39,203 nucleotides of DNA from Acidobacteriota bacterium (lineage in GTDB: Bacteria > Acidobacteriota > Thermoanaerobaculia > Multivoradales > J023). The stretch lies in assembly GCA_003697015.1 (NCBI GenBank), contig RFGL01000332.1, positions 1 to 39,203 on the forward strand. The letters are read 5' to 3'. The notes beneath the pieces were generated by a model. That model saw only the letters and a list, made by a program, of their open reading frames with translations. It made no database searches and was not told the origin of the DNA. Positions 25,794 through 38,845 of the stretch are shown here, piece after piece. The position numbers and the translations under genes are program-made. Position 1 is the first letter of the stretch. Each line of letters begins with the position of its first letter.

Positions 25794-27152
25794 ATGGGCC
25801 GGAGGTTGAGCCGCGGCGAGCTGGCGCGCAAGCTGATCCACCTCGGCGCCGGCACGATCGCCTTCGCCGTCGTCTTCCTCGGCCCGGCGCCTAGCGCTCT
25901 GGTCGCGCTCCTCGGGCTGGCGACCAACCTCTTGGTGCTGCCGGCGGTGGGCGGCAAGCGGCTGTGGCGGGAAGACGAGCTGGCGCGCGGCGTCTCCGCC
26001 GGCATCGTCTTCTACCCCCTGTCGGTCTTGATCCTGATCCTCGCCTTCCGGCGCCACCCCGAGGTGGCGGCGGCGACCTGGGGCCTGCTCGCCTTCGGCG
26101 ACGGCATGGCGGGGCTGGTCGGCATGCGCTTCGGTCGCCGCCCGCTGCCGTGGAATCCGGCCAAGACCTGGCTCGGCAGCCTCGCCTACGCCGCCTGCGG
26201 CGGCCTGGCGTCGGCGGTTCTCCTGTGGTGGACCGTGAGCCACCCGCTCGGCGCCGGCGGGCGGCCGATCGATCTCGGCTTCGTCGCCGCCATCTGCGCC
26301 GTCACCGCCATCGCCGCCGCCTTCTTGGAGTCCCTGCCCCTGGGCCTCGACGACAACCTCGGGGTGCCTCTCGTCGCCGGCCTGCTGCTCTTCGCCCTGC
26401 GCCTGACCGAAGGCCGCTGGGCGCTCCTCGACTGGCCGGCCCTGGCGTCCGGCGCCGCCGCCGGCTTGGCGTTCAACCTGGTGCTCGCCGCCGCCGCCCT
26501 GGGCAGCCGTGCCCTGAGCGCCTCGGGGGCGGTGGCGGGGGTCGTCGTCGGCACCGCGATCTACGCCGGCGCCGGCTGGCGGGGCTACCTGCTGCTGGTG
26601 GCCTTCGTCGTCCTCGGCTCCGCCGCCACCCGCGCCGGCTACGCGCGCAAGCGGGCGGCGGGCCTGAGCCAGGAGCATGGCGGCCGGCGGCGGGCGCGCC
26701 ACGCCCTGGCCAACGGTGCGGTGGCGGCGCTGGCGGCGACGTTCGCCGTCGTGACCCCGTACCGGGAAAGTTGTCTGCTCGCCCTGGCCGGCGCCCTGGC
26801 CACCGCCCTGGGGGATACCCTGAGCTCGGAGCTGGGCCAGCTCTGGGGCCGGCGGCCGGTCCTCCTGACGACCTTCCGGCGCGCGCCGCCGGGCACCGAC
26901 GGCGCGATCTCCGCCGCCGGCACCCTCGCCGGTCTCGCCGGTGCCCTGGCGATCGCCGCCCTCGGCGCCGCCGCCGGTCTCTACCCCGCCGCCGGCGCGG
27001 CGCTGGTCGTCGTCGCCGGCTTCGCCGGCACCACCGCCGACAGCCTCCTCGGCGCCACCCTCGAGCGCCGCGGCCTGCTCGACAACGAAGCGGTCAACTT
27101 CCTCGCCACCCTGGCCGGGGCCCTGACCGCCGGCGTCCTCGCCGCTCAGTAG
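25794..27152 (+). CDS. Fusion of a dolichol/phytol kinase-like (VTE5 type) and a DUF92 (VTE6 type) membrane domain
   Basis: 452 residues, almost all membrane segments, in two halves. The N-terminal half (1-~205) matches the SEC59/DGK1/VTE5 group of CTP-dependent polyprenol, diacylglycerol or phytol kinases. It has ELARKLIHLGAGTIAF, the signature GDGMAGLVGMRFG, PAKTWLGSLAY and GLDDNLGVPLVAGL. The C-terminal half (~215-452) is a DUF92/TIGR00297 protein with SGAVAGVVVGTAIY, DTLSSELGQLWG, VLLTTFRRAPPGTDGAISAAGTLAG and FAGTTADSLLGATLERRGLLDNEAVNF. In plants VTE5 phosphorylates phytol and VTE6 (DUF92) phosphorylates phytyl phosphate, so one polypeptide could carry both steps from a prenol to its diphosphate. 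The actual alcohol is unknown. It starts 21 bases after rmd; its last 7 bases overlap the convergent STN gene. Confidence 0.85.
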   Translation: MGRRLSRGELARKLIHLGAGTIAFAVVFLGPAPSALVALLGLATNLLVLPAVGGKRLWREDELARGVSAGIVFYPLSVLILILAFRRHPEVAAATWGLLAFGDGMAGLVGMRFGRRPLPWNPAKTWLGSLAYAACGGLASAVLLWWTVSHPLGAGGRPIDLGFVAAICAVTAIAAAFLESLPLGLDDNLGVPLVAGLLLFALRLTEGRWALLDWPALASGAAAGLAFNLVLAAAALGSRALSASGAVAGVVVGTAIYAGAGWRGYLLLVAFVVLGSAATRAGYARKRAAGLSQEHGGRRRARHALANGAVAALAATFAVVTPYRESCLLALAGALATALGDTLSSELGQLWGRRPVLLTTFRRAPPGTDGAISAAGTLAGLAGALAIAALGAAAGLYPAAGAALVVVAGFAGTTADSLLGATLERRGLLDNEAVNFLATLAGALTAGVLAAQ

Positions 27153-27508
27153 GCCGCGTCGCCCAGGCGCACCAGCCCCGGCTCGCCGTCGCTGCTACCG
27201 ACGACCACGAAGCGGCCGGCGATCACCGCCTGCAGGTCGTTGATCCGCACCAGCTGATCGAGCGCCTGGTCCCAGGGCACGCCGTGGAGCTCGACGGTCA
27301 CGCCGGCGCTCACGTCGAGGCCGACCTCGATCGCCAGCTTCTTGCCGGCGCGCTGCGCGATCTCCTGCAGCACCGTTCCGAGCTGCGCGTTCTTGACGCT
27401 CAGCGAGATCGGCTGCTCCACCCAGCCGGAATCTGCGCTGGCGGGTAGATGGGCGGCGAGGGTGGTGATCAACAAGGCGGCGATCAGCAGAAGTCGTGCA
27501 CGTGTCAT
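27146..27508 (-). CDS. Small secreted protein with a secretin/TonB short N-terminal (STN) domain
   Basis: 120 residues with a clear signal peptide (RARLLLIAALLITTLAAHLPASA, cleavage near ASA-DS). It consists of little more than one STN-like fold: ISLSVKNAQLGTVLQEIAQRAGKKLAIEVGLDVSAGVTVELHGVPWDQALDQLVRINDLQ. STN domains normally sit at the periplasmic end of secretins (PilQ, GspD) and TonB-dependent transducers; a free-standing one is unusual. Its ATG overlaps the stop of the dual-OB-like gene (ATGA) with GGGAGGT just upstream, so it is translationally linked to the DUF488 operon. Whether it shares a function with those cytosolic proteins or is a chance neighbour is unknown. Confidence 0.75.
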   Translation of the reverse strand: MTRARLLLIAALLITTLAAHLPASADSGWVEQPISLSVKNAQLGTVLQEIAQRAGKKLAIEVGLDVSAGVTVELHGVPWDQALDQLVRINDLQAVIAGRFVVVGSSDGEPGLVRLGDAAY

Positions 27509-28155
27509 CGTGACCTCCCGTTTGGGTTCGCATTGTCAGAACCATACCATTCCGATAATTGAAGATAGCAGCGCTCCTCGAAGTCCTCCGCCTCCTCCGG
27601 TTTCCACCAGGTGGCGAGGGATATCCGGACCAGGGTGCCGGCGGCAATCCGCGGCGGCGGTTTCCGCTCGCCGACGTAGGCTAGGCCGCGGACCAAGTCG
27701 TTGAGGTTGGGGTGGTGGTAATCGAGATGTCTGCCGTCCGACCGCAGGACAAGATCCCGATCCGGGATCCAAAAGCCGGTGCTGTGATCGGGCACGCCGA
27801 CGCGCCGGCAGACGTAGCCGTTGCCGTTTGCGGTAAAGCGCACGAGGCCGTCGAAGAGCTTGGCGATCGAGCCGCGCCAGGGGCGCACGAAGGCGCGCAG
27901 GTGATGGTCGAGGTGCGCCACGCGATCGACGCGCCGCGCCTCGAGTACGCGGACGTTCTCCACATGCGGCGGCACGACGTTGTCGACCTTTTCGAAGACC
28001 AGCTCCCAGACGTCTCCGACGCGGGCCGGAGACGAAGCGTCGGGGTGCTCGCCGGTGGCCCTCAGCAAGCGCACCGGCTGCTTCGTCTCGGTGATCCCGC
28101 CGATGCACCGGTGACCTCCGTGCATGCGGGTGCGGGCGACGATCAGGACCCGCAC
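27505..28155 (-). CDS. Dual-OB-like protein of the DUF488 operon
   Basis: 216 residues if it begins at GTG 28155 (VRVLIVARTRMHGGHRCIGGI). The longer ORF track start gives only an arginine-rich shadow of DUF488. It begins LIVARTRMHGGHRCIGGITETKQPVRLL, continues GDVWELVFEKVDNVVPPHVENVRVLEA and contains CRRVGVPDHSTGFWIPDRDLVLRSDG and LVRISLATWWKPEE. Overall it is a run of beta-rich segments with a GWxI/FWIPD-type core. This resembles proteins named dual OB-domain containing in public annotation, which I recall sitting beside DUF488 genes; that is memory, not checked. OB folds typically bind nucleic acid or nucleotides. It overlaps the upstream DUF488 by 13 bases and the STN gene by 4. Confidence 0.6.
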   Translation of the reverse strand: MRVLIVARTRMHGGHRCIGGITETKQPVRLLRATGEHPDASSPARVGDVWELVFEKVDNVVPPHVENVRVLEARRVDRVAHLDHHLRAFVRPWRGSIAKLFDGLVRFTANGNGYVCRRVGVPDHSTGFWIPDRDLVLRSDGRHLDYHHPNLNDLVRGLAYVGERKPPPRIAAGTLVRISLATWWKPEEAEDFEERCYLQLSEWYGSDNANPNGRSR

Positions 28156-28652
28156 GGCGTGACGTGCTCGATTTCCAGGTTGAGCTCCTGCGCCAGGCGC
28201 CGGGCGAGGAGCGAGCGGTGGCAGGCGGCCGGATTGTCCTCGACGCAGAAGAGGGCGGCGGCGCGGGCGCCTTCTCCCAGCCGGCGGACGAAGGCCTCCG
28301 CGTCGAGGGCGTCCAGGCATTGCGCGGCGTAGGCGCGCACGAAGTCGTCGCACAGGGCGGTGCGCTCGCCCCGGCGCAAGCCGCCGGCCTTGTCCGCCTG
28401 CCGTTGCAGCTCGCGCACCGACTCCGCCGGCGACAGATCCTTCAGGTGCAGGTAGCGGATCCCCATCGCCTGCAGCCGATCCTGCAACCGGCGGCTGTTG
28501 GCGAAGGCGTAGCGCGAGCCGCGCAGCCCTCGCCGCCGCCGCACGTCGCAGAAGACGTCCACCCCCGCGGCCTCGAGGGCGGCGAAGAAGGCGTCTTCGG
28601 TAAAGCCGTAGACGCCGATCGTCAGCAGCCGCAGATCAGCCACTCTCCGCAC
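28143..28652 (-). CDS. DUF488 family protein (second copy)
   Basis: 169 residues with the DUF488 layout: LLTIGVYGFTEDAFFAALEAAGVDVFCDVRRRRG at the start, the Tyr-Leu-His region IRYLHLKDL in the middle and the conserved FCVEDNPAACHRSLLA, where the C-x-E and CHR residues form the family hallmark. DUF488 biochemistry is unsettled; the invariant Cys, Glu, His and Arg suggest an active site. This copy is divergent from the upstream one (VRRRRGLRGSRYAFANS in place of VRSSPHSRFNPDF). It overlaps the upstream DUF488 by 17 bases and the downstream dual-OB-like gene by 13, so the three are translationally coupled. Confidence 0.85.
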   Translation of the reverse strand: MRRVADLRLLTIGVYGFTEDAFFAALEAAGVDVFCDVRRRRGLRGSRYAFANSRRLQDRLQAMGIRYLHLKDLSPAESVRELQRQADKAGGLRRGERTALCDDFVRAYAAQCLDALDAEAFVRRLGEGARAAALFCVEDNPAACHRSLLARRLAQELNLEIEHVTPCGS

Positions 28653-29259
28653 CCCCAGCCGTGCCCGGCCGGTACCGCTTGCGCGAGGTAAACGCTGTGC
28701 CGAAGAGGCTCTTCTGGCCGCCGGTCAGACGGCGCACGACCTCTTCCTGGCTGCGCAGGCTGCCATCGGGCGCAATGTGCTGGACCGGGATGCCGCTGCC
28801 GTCGAGCACGGTGCCGATCAGCTTGCTGCGGTGGCAGCGTTCGGGCTGGCCTTCGCTGCACAGGATGCATATCCGCAGCTCCTTGCGCCAGGCGTCCTTC
28901 AAGCGATCGATTCCCCGGCGGAAGGCCGCCGTCATCTTGACCCGCTCGTAGTCGACTTTGCCGTCGCGATAGCAGGCCGGATCCTGCGGCCGGCCGCCGA
29001 GGAGATCGCCCATGAAGACGTAGCGCAGACCCGCCTCCGCGAGGGCACTCTCGAGGGGGAGGCGGGAGAAGTCGGGATTGAATCGCGAGTGGGGCGACGA
29101 ACGCACGTCGACGACGAAGGCGACGCCGTGGCGCCGCAGGTTGCCGAGGAGCTCGTCCATCCGGAGGCCGCCATAGCCGATGGTGTAGACCGCGCCGGGC
29201 GCCGACGTCCCATTGCAGGCAGGCGCCCGCGCCGGGGGATCTGTTGGGGATTTCGTCAA
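28636..29259 (-). CDS. DUF488 family protein (first copy)
   Basis: 207 residues from TTG 29259, chosen because GGGAG lies 7 bases upstream and the DUF488 domain begins soon after (VYTIGYGGLRMDELLGNLRRHGV). The ORF track start at 29412 would run antisense-like through the thioesterase remnant in another frame. Canonical DUF488 motifs are present: VVDVRSSPHSRFNPDFSRLPL, LRYVFMGDLLGGRP and the Cys-Glu...Cys-His-Arg box ICILCSEGQPERCHRSKLI. The C-terminal ~45 residues (LRSQEEVVRRLTGGQKSLF) extend beyond the core, as in the standard long family form. First gene of a four-gene overlapping operon. Confidence 0.88.
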   Translation of the reverse strand: MTKSPTDPPARAPACNGTSAPGAVYTIGYGGLRMDELLGNLRRHGVAFVVDVRSSPHSRFNPDFSRLPLESALAEAGLRYVFMGDLLGGRPQDPACYRDGKVDYERVKMTAAFRRGIDRLKDAWRKELRICILCSEGQPERCHRSKLIGTVLDGSGIPVQHIAPDGSLRSQEEVVRRLTGGQKSLFGTAFTSRKRYRPGTAGGAESG

Positions 29260-29276: not shown

Positions 29277-29399
29277 TCAGACCTCGATTTCGATCACCGC
29301 TCGCGACTCCGACACCTCGATCGTCGGTTCGTAGAACGCATCGATCGGAGCCGAAAGATACATCCGCTCGAGTGCTAGGTAGTGGGGATCCCGGGCCAT
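29277..29399 (-). pseudogene. Truncated PaaI-type (hotdog) thioesterase, first 40 codons only
   Basis: A 40-residue ORF starting at ATG 29399, missing from the ORF track. MARDPHYLALERMYLSAPI and DAFYEPTIEVSESRAVIEI read like the N-terminal start of PaaI/hotdog thioesterases, where the text normally continues into the catalytic helix region. Here a TGA follows EIEV directly, and no continuation is seen in any frame before the DUF488 start 18 bases downstream. It is therefore probably a remnant left when another piece of DNA, perhaps the DUF488 operon, replaced the rest. The family call is from pattern memory. A genuine 40-residue peptide cannot be excluded. Confidence 0.45.
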
Positions 29400-29659: not shown

Positions 29660-30235
29660 GTGAGCGCCAGCAACAGCCAATCCAGCGAACCCGCGGCCGC
29701 AGACGCCGGCCTCGACCTTCTGGCCCGCGACGCCGCGCGGGCCGCCCGCGGAGAGCTCGACCACCTGCCGAGCACCGGGCTCCTGTCCTTCTACGACCGC
29801 CTGCGCGAGCGGGTGGTGGCGCGGATCGAGCGCGGCGGCCGGCTGAGCCCGGCGATGACCGACGCGCTCCTCCTGGTGCCGGACGTCTTCATGCTGCTCG
29901 TGCGTCTGGCCCTCGACCGCGGGGTGCCGCGCGCCGAGCGCGCCTTGGTGGCGAGCGCTCTGGCCTACTTCGTCCTGCCCTTCGACCTGATGCCCGAGCT
30001 GGCCCTGGGTACGGTGGGCTATGCCGACGACCTGGTGCTGGCGGTGATCATCCTGTCGCGGACCTTCAGCGGCGACCTGGCACCCTACGCCGAGAAGCAT
30101 TGGAGCGGCTCGGCCCGGCTGCGGGCAGTCCTCCGCGACGTCCTCCAGACCGCCGACAGCCTGCTCGGCGACCGAGTCTACGGCCGACTGAAGAAACTCC
30201 TCGCCAGCCGCGGCATCGAGGTCGATGATGGTTAG
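29660..30235 (+). CDS. YkvA/DUF1232 domain membrane-associated protein
   Basis: 191 residues from GTG 29660, with GAGGAG 5-10 bases upstream. The central segment RALVASALAYFVLPFDLMPE and the following GYADDLVLAVIILSRTF are the DUF1232 (YkvA) signature, with the LPFDxxPD/E turn between two helices. An N-terminal ~80 residues of helical sequence (GLLSFYDRLRERVVARIERGG) and a C-terminal ~50 residues flank it. DUF1232 has no settled function. The TAG overlaps the end of the convergent hypothetical gene by 4 bases. Confidence 0.82.
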   Translation: MSASNSQSSEPAAADAGLDLLARDAARAARGELDHLPSTGLLSFYDRLRERVVARIERGGRLSPAMTDALLLVPDVFMLLVRLALDRGVPRAERALVASALAYFVLPFDLMPELALGTVGYADDLVLAVIILSRTFSGDLAPYAEKHWSGSARLRAVLRDVLQTADSLLGDRVYGRLKKLLASRGIEVDDG

Positions 30236-36642: not shown

Positions 36643-37596
36643 CTACGACGAGCCGGCGGCCTGCTGCCGTCCGGCGCCGTCGCGGAAGTCGGCGGCCCGT
36701 ACCCGAGCGAGCTCGGGCCGGCCGAAGAGCTTGAGGTTGGCGCGTTCCCGCTCCAGCCGCGCCATCGCCAGGTCGCAGTAGGCGGGATCGATCTCGACGC
36801 CGATGCTGTTGCGGCCGCAGCGCATCGCCGCCAGGATGGTGGTGCCGGTGCCGCAGAAGGGGTCGAGGACCGTGTCTTCGACGAAGGAGAACATGCGCAC
36901 CAAGCGGAGGGCGAGCTCCAGCGGGTAGGGCGCCGGGTGCTCGCGGGTCGACGCACCGGTGATGCGCCAGAACTGCTGGAACCACTGCTCGTAGTCCGCC
37001 TTAGCGATGCGCGACAGCCGCCGCTGCCGCTCGCTCGGCTTGCGGTAGCCCCCCGGCTTGCGCTGCATGAGGATGAACTCGATGTCGTTCTTGATGATCG
37101 CGTTCGGCTCGTAGGGCTTGCCGAGGAAGCCCGCGCCCCCGCCCTGCACCTCGTAGCTGGCATTGGCGATCTTGTGCCAGATGATCGGATTCAGGTTGTC
37201 GAAGCCGATCTTGCGGCAGGCGACGGCGATGTCGGCGTGGAGCGGCACCACCACGTGCCGCCCGTGGCGCCGCGACAAGCAGACGTCGCCCACCACGCAT
37301 ACCAGCCGTCCGCCCGGCACCAGGACGCGGAAGCATTCCCGCCATACCCGCTCGAGGTCGTCCAGGAAGTCCTCGTAGTCCGCCACGTGGCCGAGCTGCC
37401 CGGGATGGTCCCGGTACTCCTTGAGGGTCCAGTAGGGAGGCGATGTGACGACTAAGTGTACGGTGCTATCCTCAATATAAAAAAGCTCTCTTGCATCTCC
37501 TTCAATCAATATATGTAGAGATGTGATGAACTCCGTAGTGTGCTTACAGCGATCTTCTACGCTCGACAATACATCTTGGATTCTATTATAGTACAT
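36643..37596 (-). CDS. Beta-class site-specific DNA methyltransferase (N4-cytosine type suggested)
   Basis: 317 residues. The catalytic motif IV TSPPYW (51-56) precedes the SAM-binding motif I DPFCGTGTTILAA (from 245), the order of beta-class DNA methyltransferases. TSPPYW is more usual for N4-cytosine than N6-adenine enzymes. Other fits are VLVPGGRLVCVVGD, the region between DIEFILMQRKPGGYRKPS and WRITGASTREHPAPYP, and SIGVEIDPAYCDLA. No restriction enzyme gene is adjacent on this side. The first ~50 codons lie in AT-rich DNA and the remainder in GC-rich DNA, with the change just before motif IV. The ATG at 37596 overlaps a TATAAT, so the true start could be a later TTG (codon 30, before IEGDARELF). 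Downstream of and codirectional with the DndB-like gene. Confidence 0.88.
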   Translation of the reverse strand: MYYNRIQDVLSSVEDRCKHTTEFITSLHILIEGDARELFYIEDSTVHLVVTSPPYWTLKEYRDHPGQLGHVADYEDFLDDLERVWRECFRVLVPGGRLVCVVGDVCLSRRHGRHVVVPLHADIAVACRKIGFDNLNPIIWHKIANASYEVQGGGAGFLGKPYEPNAIIKNDIEFILMQRKPGGYRKPSERQRRLSRIAKADYEQWFQQFWRITGASTREHPAPYPLELALRLVRMFSFVEDTVLDPFCGTGTTILAAMRCGRNSIGVEIDPAYCDLAMARLERERANLKLFGRPELARVRAADFRDGAGRQQAAGSS

Positions 37597-37693
37597 TACT
37601 AGCTCCGTGGCTCTTGGAAAAACACTAGGAATGGGGGGATCTTCAGTCGCCTCCCACTCCTATCTTGCGCGGTGTCGTACGCTGTCCTTCTGG

Positions 37694-38845
37694 TTACACT
37701 GCTTCTGCGCTACCGCTCTGTTTTCTTACTCTGCGATATCCCTTTGAAGTCGTATCGTTCAGTGCTGCATAAACTGCGTACGAGGTCTCCTTACTCCCTC
37801 CGATGGAAAATGTGCCTTTGGGTGTGAACTTGCCTGCAATGCCCTCCCAGTGCTTGCCCCGGCTCCAGTCAACACTGCGCAGCTTGTTCAATTGCCCGCG
37901 TAGGCTCTCTGACCTCGTGGCAGGATCGATATTCACGAGGTCATGTCCCATCGCCCCAATGGCGGCGAGGACTGATGGGGCAGCCGCAACAGTTCGAGAT
38001 CTATCTTCAATTGCAGGACCGATCATCTCCGTAACAGCAATAAACCATTCAACGGCGACGTCCTGAGTGTTCTCTGGAATAGCCCGGCTTGGAACGCTCT
38101 TGGCTCCATACTTGACGCCGCCAATGCCGGTAGCGAGAGTTACGCAGCTTCCACGAAGAGCGGCAATGGTTACAACATCGGTATCACTCCTTCGAAGCTG
38201 TCTGCGTACCTCGTTGACCCTACCTTTAAAGAATGGAACAGAGCGTTCGACATAACGTGCTATCCTCGTCATGGGATCTCGGAGATCCATTCCAATTGCG
38301 ATCGCAGCATTTGGCTTCACGCCATACATATTCAGGTCATGGAACGCTTGTCGCGCCCATTCAAGGGATAGCCCGTGGCATAGCATGATTGCAACGAAGT
38401 CATCTTCCGTTGATGGTTCTATGTTACGAGCTTCGAATCTAGCAGCGAGCTGCGTTTCACCGTCGATTGCCACAAGCTTAATACCCCACGGTACTTGAAT
38501 AAGTGCTGTGCCGTCCTCCTTGTCTTCGACGGTGAGCTTTTGCTGTGAGAAAAGAATAATGGGCGGAGTTAATCCGTTTTGACTCGACTTTAGCCCAGCA
38601 ATATACTCTGCATAGCTTGGAACATTCCTTCTCTTGGCCCCTTCGAACAGCCGCTGTACCTCCTGGCGGATTTCCTGAATCTCTCGGAGCTCTCTGTTTG
38701 CCTCGACCAAACTCCGATTCTCAGTTTGCCTTGGATCTGGAGCGAGCTGAAAAAGTTGAGCGGCTCTGACCCGACCCAAGAAGCGAGTCTCGTCGATCTT
38801 GACGCCAGCAATCACGTGTCCATCGGTTGGATTGATCTTTTCCAT
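37694..38845 (-). CDS. DndB-like protein (DGQHR-type domain)
   Basis: 383 residues from ATG 38845 with AGGAT-type Shine-Dalgarno just upstream. The overall layout matches DndB/DGQHR proteins, which regulate or accompany DNA phosphorothioation. N-terminal GVKIDETRFLGRVRAAQLFQLAPDPR is followed by a charged helix, then PPIILFSQQKL and the core IDGETQLAARFEAR (128-140), where DndB usually has IDGQHR. After that come IMLCHGLSLEWARQAFHDLN and a helical C-terminal half. The signature is altered (ETQ for QHR), so the call is moderate. No dndC, dndD or dndE is in the window. Codon use is visibly less GC-rich than in the rest of the window, indicating horizontal acquisition. A methyltransferase follows 97 bases later. 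Confidence 0.6.
   Translation of the reverse strand: MEKINPTDGHVIAGVKIDETRFLGRVRAAQLFQLAPDPRQTENRSLVEANRELREIQEIRQEVQRLFEGAKRRNVPSYAEYIAGLKSSQNGLTPPIILFSQQKLTVEDKEDGTALIQVPWGIKLVAIDGETQLAARFEARNIEPSTEDDFVAIMLCHGLSLEWARQAFHDLNMYGVKPNAAIAIGMDLRDPMTRIARYVERSVPFFKGRVNEVRRQLRRSDTDVVTIAALRGSCVTLATGIGGVKYGAKSVPSRAIPENTQDVAVEWFIAVTEMIGPAIEDRSRTVAAAPSVLAAIGAMGHDLVNIDPATRSESLRGQLNKLRSVDWSRGKHWEGIAGKFTPKGTFSIGGSKETSYAVYAALNDTTSKGYRRVRKQSGSAEAV

Follow-up and report, generated by a model that had tools for sequence, protein, structure and literature searches.

Proteins with a DUF488 domain are widespread and uncharacterised. The DuOB and DUF488 domains and the names of their subfamilies reportedly go back to studies by Burroughs and Aravind that dealt with the rhodanese-phosphatase superfamily and with conflict systems. 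In PADLOC, the candidate defence system PDC-M45 requires two DUF488 genes (models B and C), and since the DuOB protein of an Acidobacteriota relative of the genome studied here matches model PDC-M45A at 303 bits, PDC-M45 can be described as one DuOB (A) plus two DUF488 proteins (B and C). Classical PDC-M45 loci occur in Allochromatium, where the locus lies beside cas1, csx16, and csm6, in Agrobacterium, where HORMA genes, AAA genes, and an integrase are in its vicinity, and in Rhodovastum, with DuOB confirmed by Pfam in these three, and also in several Acidobacteriota. No mechanistic paper on DUF488, DuOB, or PDC-M45 was found among the literature searched, and the PDC systems of PADLOC are mostly unvalidated candidates (PMC12482510, PMC12988326).

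The locus analysed here belongs to a contig of an Acidobacteriota bacterium, the whole of which (39,203 nucleotides) is designated the window. Positions 27146-29259 of its minus strand contain four overlapping open reading frames (ORFs), flanked as follows:

DUF488-a, 28636-29259, minus strand: first cassette gene, TTG start; Pfam PF04343 at 80.5 bits (2.1e-22), PADLOC PDC-M45B at 179 bits
DUF488-b, 28143-28652, minus strand: second cassette gene, GTG start; Pfam PF04343 at 56.7 bits (4.8e-15); AlphaFold2 model
DuOB, 27505-28155, minus strand: third cassette gene, dual OB-fold protein, GTG start; Pfam PF22557 at 63.9 bits (2.9e-17); AlphaFold2 model
STN protein, 27146-27508, minus strand: free-standing, predicted to be exported, ATG start; Pfam PF07660 at 31.8 bits (1.2e-07)
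Gene remnant, 29277-29399, minus strand: N-terminal 40 codons of a 4HBT/PaaI-type thioesterase and a stop codon
DUF92 integral membrane protein, 25794-27152, plus strand: left flank, conserved anchor of the locus; Pfam PF01940; syntenic in relatives
DUF1232 protein, 29660-30235, plus strand: right flank, conserved anchor of the locus; Pfam PF06803; syntenic in relatives

The domains of all four overlapping ORFs exceed the Pfam cut-offs. The original prediction for this DNA had described four genes overlapping by 17, 13, and 4 bases, the third of them OB-like; the same coordinates and overlaps were recovered, and the third gene proved to be a Pfam DuOB. The start codons of DUF488-a, DUF488-b, and DuOB are uncertain, and the overlap between the two DUF488 genes is 8 bases if the next in-frame GTG of DUF488-b is used. 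The stop codon of DuOB and the start codon of STN share the sequence ATGA and a ribosome site GGGAGGTCACGATG (GGGAGGT) is located 5 bases upstream of STN, which makes co-expression of DuOB and STN in the window likely; the convergent genes STN and DUF92 have 7 bases in common at their 3' ends (27146-27152). Near the contig end and 7.4 kb from the cassette, a gene for a type II-like N6/N4 DNA methyltransferase adjoins one for a DndB/DGQHR-like protein (36643-38845, minus strand), possibly a defence locus.

Like PDC-M45, the window contains one DuOB and two DUF488 genes, i.e. the same three families, in one operon. The gene order differs, being DuOB-DUF488-DUF488 in the classical loci and DUF488-DUF488-DuOB in the window; the window DuOB is only about 15-20% identical to classical DuOB; and the window-type cassettes have a sister clade with DuOB-RecQ fusions. 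DUF488-b scores 37 bits with PDC-M45C, below the 58.7 bits obtained with PDC-M19A. Because none of the PDC-M45A models matches the window DuOB at E values of up to 1, even though Pfam identifies the protein as a DuOB, we file the cassette as what appears to be a divergent variant of PDC-M45 and not as a member. Within Pfam, the two DUF488 proteins remain below the 27-bit cut-off of the DUF488-N3a family (PF22751) with 19.3 and 26.6 bits, whereas the window proteins score above the curated cut-offs of DUF488 (PF04343) and DuOB (PF22557).

The original prediction had called for a search for DUF488-DUF488-OB neighbourhoods across genomes, and such a search, performed with a DuOB profile against GTDB species genomes and viral contigs and by tblastn against plasmids, uncovered a recurring unit. 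The census patterns were strict, so that the 24 loci obtained (the window and 23 others) are a lower bound. They are spread over about ten phyla and include one plasmid locus and two on viral contigs; among the phyla are Bacillota, Pseudomonadota, Nitrospirota, Verrucomicrobiota, Bacteroidota, Chloroflexota, Actinomycetota, Acidobacteriota (Aminicenantes and Blastocatellia), and Rhodothermota (plasmid pRMAR01); no phage record was found for the DuOB subfamily of the window, whose viral occurrence consists of the two viral contigs. DUF488-a and DUF488-b stand beside DuOB in 24/24 loci of this subfamily. A single locus (L044, 6295-8603) has the DUF488 pair and DuOB on opposite strands, with all three genes still present. 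A reduced form with one DUF488 gene followed by a divergent DuOB was observed in the same phylum as the window (L034, 6432-7669), with a gene for a large RRM-domain protein nearby. The pairwise distances of DUF488-a, DUF488-b, and DuOB correlate with r = 0.80-0.83, a value reached in none of 2000 permutations, and this correlated divergence shows that the three proteins are co-inherited.

The cassette is also horizontally mobile across phyla, as shown by three observations: the window cassette clusters with those of Bacillota, Acetobacteraceae, and Nitrospirota (tree support 99/98 and 95/96), DuOB was not found in the 58 relatives searched, and only 10 of the 396 genomes of the phylum contain it. 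The GC content at third codon positions (GC3) is 0.83 for DuOB, 0.85 for DUF488-a, 0.89 for STN, and 0.91 for DUF488-b, with DUF92, DUF1232, and three other window genes at 0.90-0.95; the lower values of DuOB and DUF488-a lend weak support to a foreign origin.

The site of insertion can be recognised from relatives. In four of them (G001, G005, G012, and G018) the gene order is sugar epimerase, DUF92, UbiA prenyltransferase (assigned by Pfam), and DUF1232, and in two others (G002 and G008) DUF92 and DUF1232 are separated by 66-230 bases. A query that finds the UbiA copies of G001, G004, and G005 finds none in the window genome (96% complete). Since UbiA lies between DUF92 and DUF1232 in several relatives and is missing from the window genome, the cassette together with STN occupies the UbiA position. 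The remnant next to DUF488-a encodes residues 1-40 of a thioesterase of the 4HBT type (Pfam 4HBT) and is 71% identical over 38 residues to the product of a full-length gene in G005. An upstream gene remnant had already been taken as a sign of insertion into the locus; the remnant is real, and insertion is supported by the cassette-free site seen in six relatives.

In 11 of the 24 loci (L045, L047-L053, and L058-L060), DuOB runs on into a RecQ helicase. The fused proteins form a single clade (support 100/99), and the window cassette belongs to a different group; this fusion in one clade is a new detail. Pfam analysis of three of the 11 fusions revealed DEAD, Helicase_C, RecQ_Zn_bind, and HRDC domains in all three, and RQC and HTH_40 domains in two each. 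The helicase reading frame is broken in L047. PADLOC matches of the fused helicase to DpdF were taken as general RecQ similarity, and its assignment to the Dpd system was discarded. The fusion hints that the cassette acts on single-stranded DNA (ssDNA). The AlphaFold2 model of the window DuOB (pLDDT 91.6) found no significant match when compared with the PDB by Foldseek (best E 0.004). Most of the leading weak matches are tandem-OB ssDNA binders or OB domains of nucleic-acid enzymes, among them POT1, Teb1, telomere end-binding protein alpha (TEBP), RNase II/R, RecO (probability 0.99 over 82 columns), and RPA, and the model thus supports, without proving it, that DuOB binds ssDNA.

DUF488-a and DUF488-b fall into two sharply separate families, each conserved internally. 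Characteristic of DUF488-a are the motifs DVRSxPYS, GG-P-D, and C-x-E-x5-C-H-R-S-K-L (CSExxPExCHRSKL) and a C-terminal LFG...TSRK.Y tail, and of DUF488-b the motifs DxRxRRGxRG and C-V-E-x5-C-H-R (CVExxPxACHRS); DUF488-a is conserved in 24/24 loci. The original prediction that both copies keep the Cys-Glu...Cys-His-Arg box and diverge around the DVRS segment is borne out: the C-x-E...C-H-R residues are invariant in the alignments of both families, and the D-x-R segment reads DVRSxPYS in the one and DxRxRRGxRG in the other. As this difference is fixed in all homologous cassettes, the two genes are an old paralogous pair, and as both retain the full Cys/Glu/Cys-His-Arg set, neither looks dead. 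No solved structure of a DUF488 or DuOB relative was found by sequence search. In the AlphaFold2 model of DUF488-b (pLDDT 95.6), five strands and helices form a Rossmann-like alternation; the invariant residues C136, E138, and C144-H145-R146 sit in a loop that connects strand 131-135 to helix 145-157, with C136 immediately following the strand, and strand 2 ends with D36-x-R38. Of an enzyme of the rhodanese-phosphatase superfamily one would expect a catalytic Cys in a strand-to-helix loop of a Rossmann-like sheet. Foldseek gave no significant match of this model in the PDB (best E 0.02) and no rhodanese or phosphatase among the matches listed.

With moderate confidence, we regard DUF488-a, DUF488-b, and DuOB as a self-contained mobile cassette whose DuOB protein binds the single-stranded nucleic acid on which the two DUF488 proteins act; the cassette would most likely serve defence and otherwise repair. 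Its insertion point in the Acidobacteriota chromosome lies between DUF92 and DUF1232. The two DUF488 proteins, each with an invariant cysteine loop, would together form a fixed two-subunit enzyme, and its substrate would be either the nucleic acid held by the tandem OB-fold protein or nucleotides that come off this nucleic acid; optionally, the RecQ fused to DuOB in the sister clade could open duplex DNA for the DUF488 proteins and DuOB. We infer ssDNA binding, catalysis, and a defence role, and the fixed DUF488 pair, always accompanied by a dual-OB protein that in one clade is welded to RecQ, gives a candidate defence system a concrete and testable class of substrate, i.e. ssDNA.

Defence against foreign DNA is favoured over repair because of the mobility and patchiness of the cassette, the CRISPR neighbours of some loci, and the methyltransferase and DndB-like genes of the window. 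Some cassette loci are flanked by CRISPR or other defence genes; on the Rhodothermus plasmid pRMAR01 (L040, 986-4515), the cassette is surrounded by TOTE-type conflict domains (TBP-TOTE helicase, PDC-M16A; S1CSD-TOTE-2) and by cas1, cas2, cas6, and csm6. The defence reading is weakened by the lack of a recurrent defence neighbour: among 105 neighbouring ORFs of the window's subclade examined with PADLOC, no family occurred in more than two, which we read only as no recurrent partner. It is possible, if rather doubtful, that the cassette is instead a unit for host DNA repair or nucleotide-damage clean-up, in which DuOB or RecQ presents damaged ssDNA from which a modified group is removed or transferred by the DUF488 pair. 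Repair systems typically contain RecQ, OB folds, and HRDC/RQC domains, many cassettes sit among ordinary metabolic genes without defence neighbours, and a distant DUF488 gene on an Acidithiobacillus plasmid is two genes away from a DNA-3-methyladenine glycosylase gene; however, the extreme patchiness, the cross-phylum transfer, and the presence on plasmids, on viral contigs, and in CRISPR neighbourhoods are more in keeping with a role in defence or in a mobile element. A more specific proposal, to which we give a low probability, is that DUF488-a and DUF488-b constitute a two-subunit cysteine enzyme that would modify or cleave ssDNA delivered by DuOB or DuOB-RecQ, i.e. an unrecognised immune chemistry of which the RecQ clade would be the helicase-driven form. 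Much less probable still is a sulfur- or redox-metabolism enzyme regulated by DuOB, with a substrate other than nucleic acid; each DUF488 protein has two conserved cysteines and a layout of D-x-R segment and Cys loop which we take to be rhodanese-like, but the dual-OB protein that always accompanies the pair and the RecQ fusion point to nucleic acid.

The preferred three-gene cassette does not include STN. The STN protein (120 residues) consists of a signal peptide, by eye a textbook-like Sec signal, and an STN domain that matches the PilQ/HofQ secretin N-domain (TIGR02515, 2.6e-09). It is homologous to the N-terminal STN domain of these secretins; in PilQ a pore domain follows the N-domains, whereas the window protein has none. 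The only other STN in the window genome is that of a PilQ-like ORF, to which the protein is 42% identical. As positive controls, the STN profile recovered known PilQ ORFs, a relative's short STN protein, and the STN gene of the window, and it found STN in 0/23 other cassette loci, by which STN is ruled out as a cassette component. The nucleic-acid sensing or repair/defence module proposed by the original prediction is plausible for the three cassette genes, given PDC-M45, the RecQ fusion, and the weak tandem-OB matches, and the exported protein foreseen as its partner drops out. That all four genes form one functional module, with exported STN serving the cytosolic cassette as a sensor or effector at the envelope, is the least probable reading, as the ATGA overlap and the strong ribosome site tying STN to DuOB in the window are outweighed by its absence elsewhere, its closest relatives being PilQ domains, the different cellular compartments, and, weakly in view of DUF488-b (0.91), a GC3 that is host-like when compared with DuOB and DUF488-a.

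STN thus appears to be a lineage-specific, secretin-derived local neighbour at the 3' end of the operon, co-transcribed at most, and setting it aside keeps the search for a mechanism from being misled towards the envelope. A tie of STN to a secretin locus, which had been named as evidence against the four-gene module, is seen in its homology to PilQ and not in its location. Three members of the same family, G004, G005, and G006 (L036, L039, and L035), also encode short exported STN-containing proteins, of which that of G004 was examined with Pfam; in each of the three the gene immediately follows one for a molybdopterin oxidoreductase, a pairing conserved in this family, and short secretin-derived STN proteins thus recur in this lineage in unrelated contexts.
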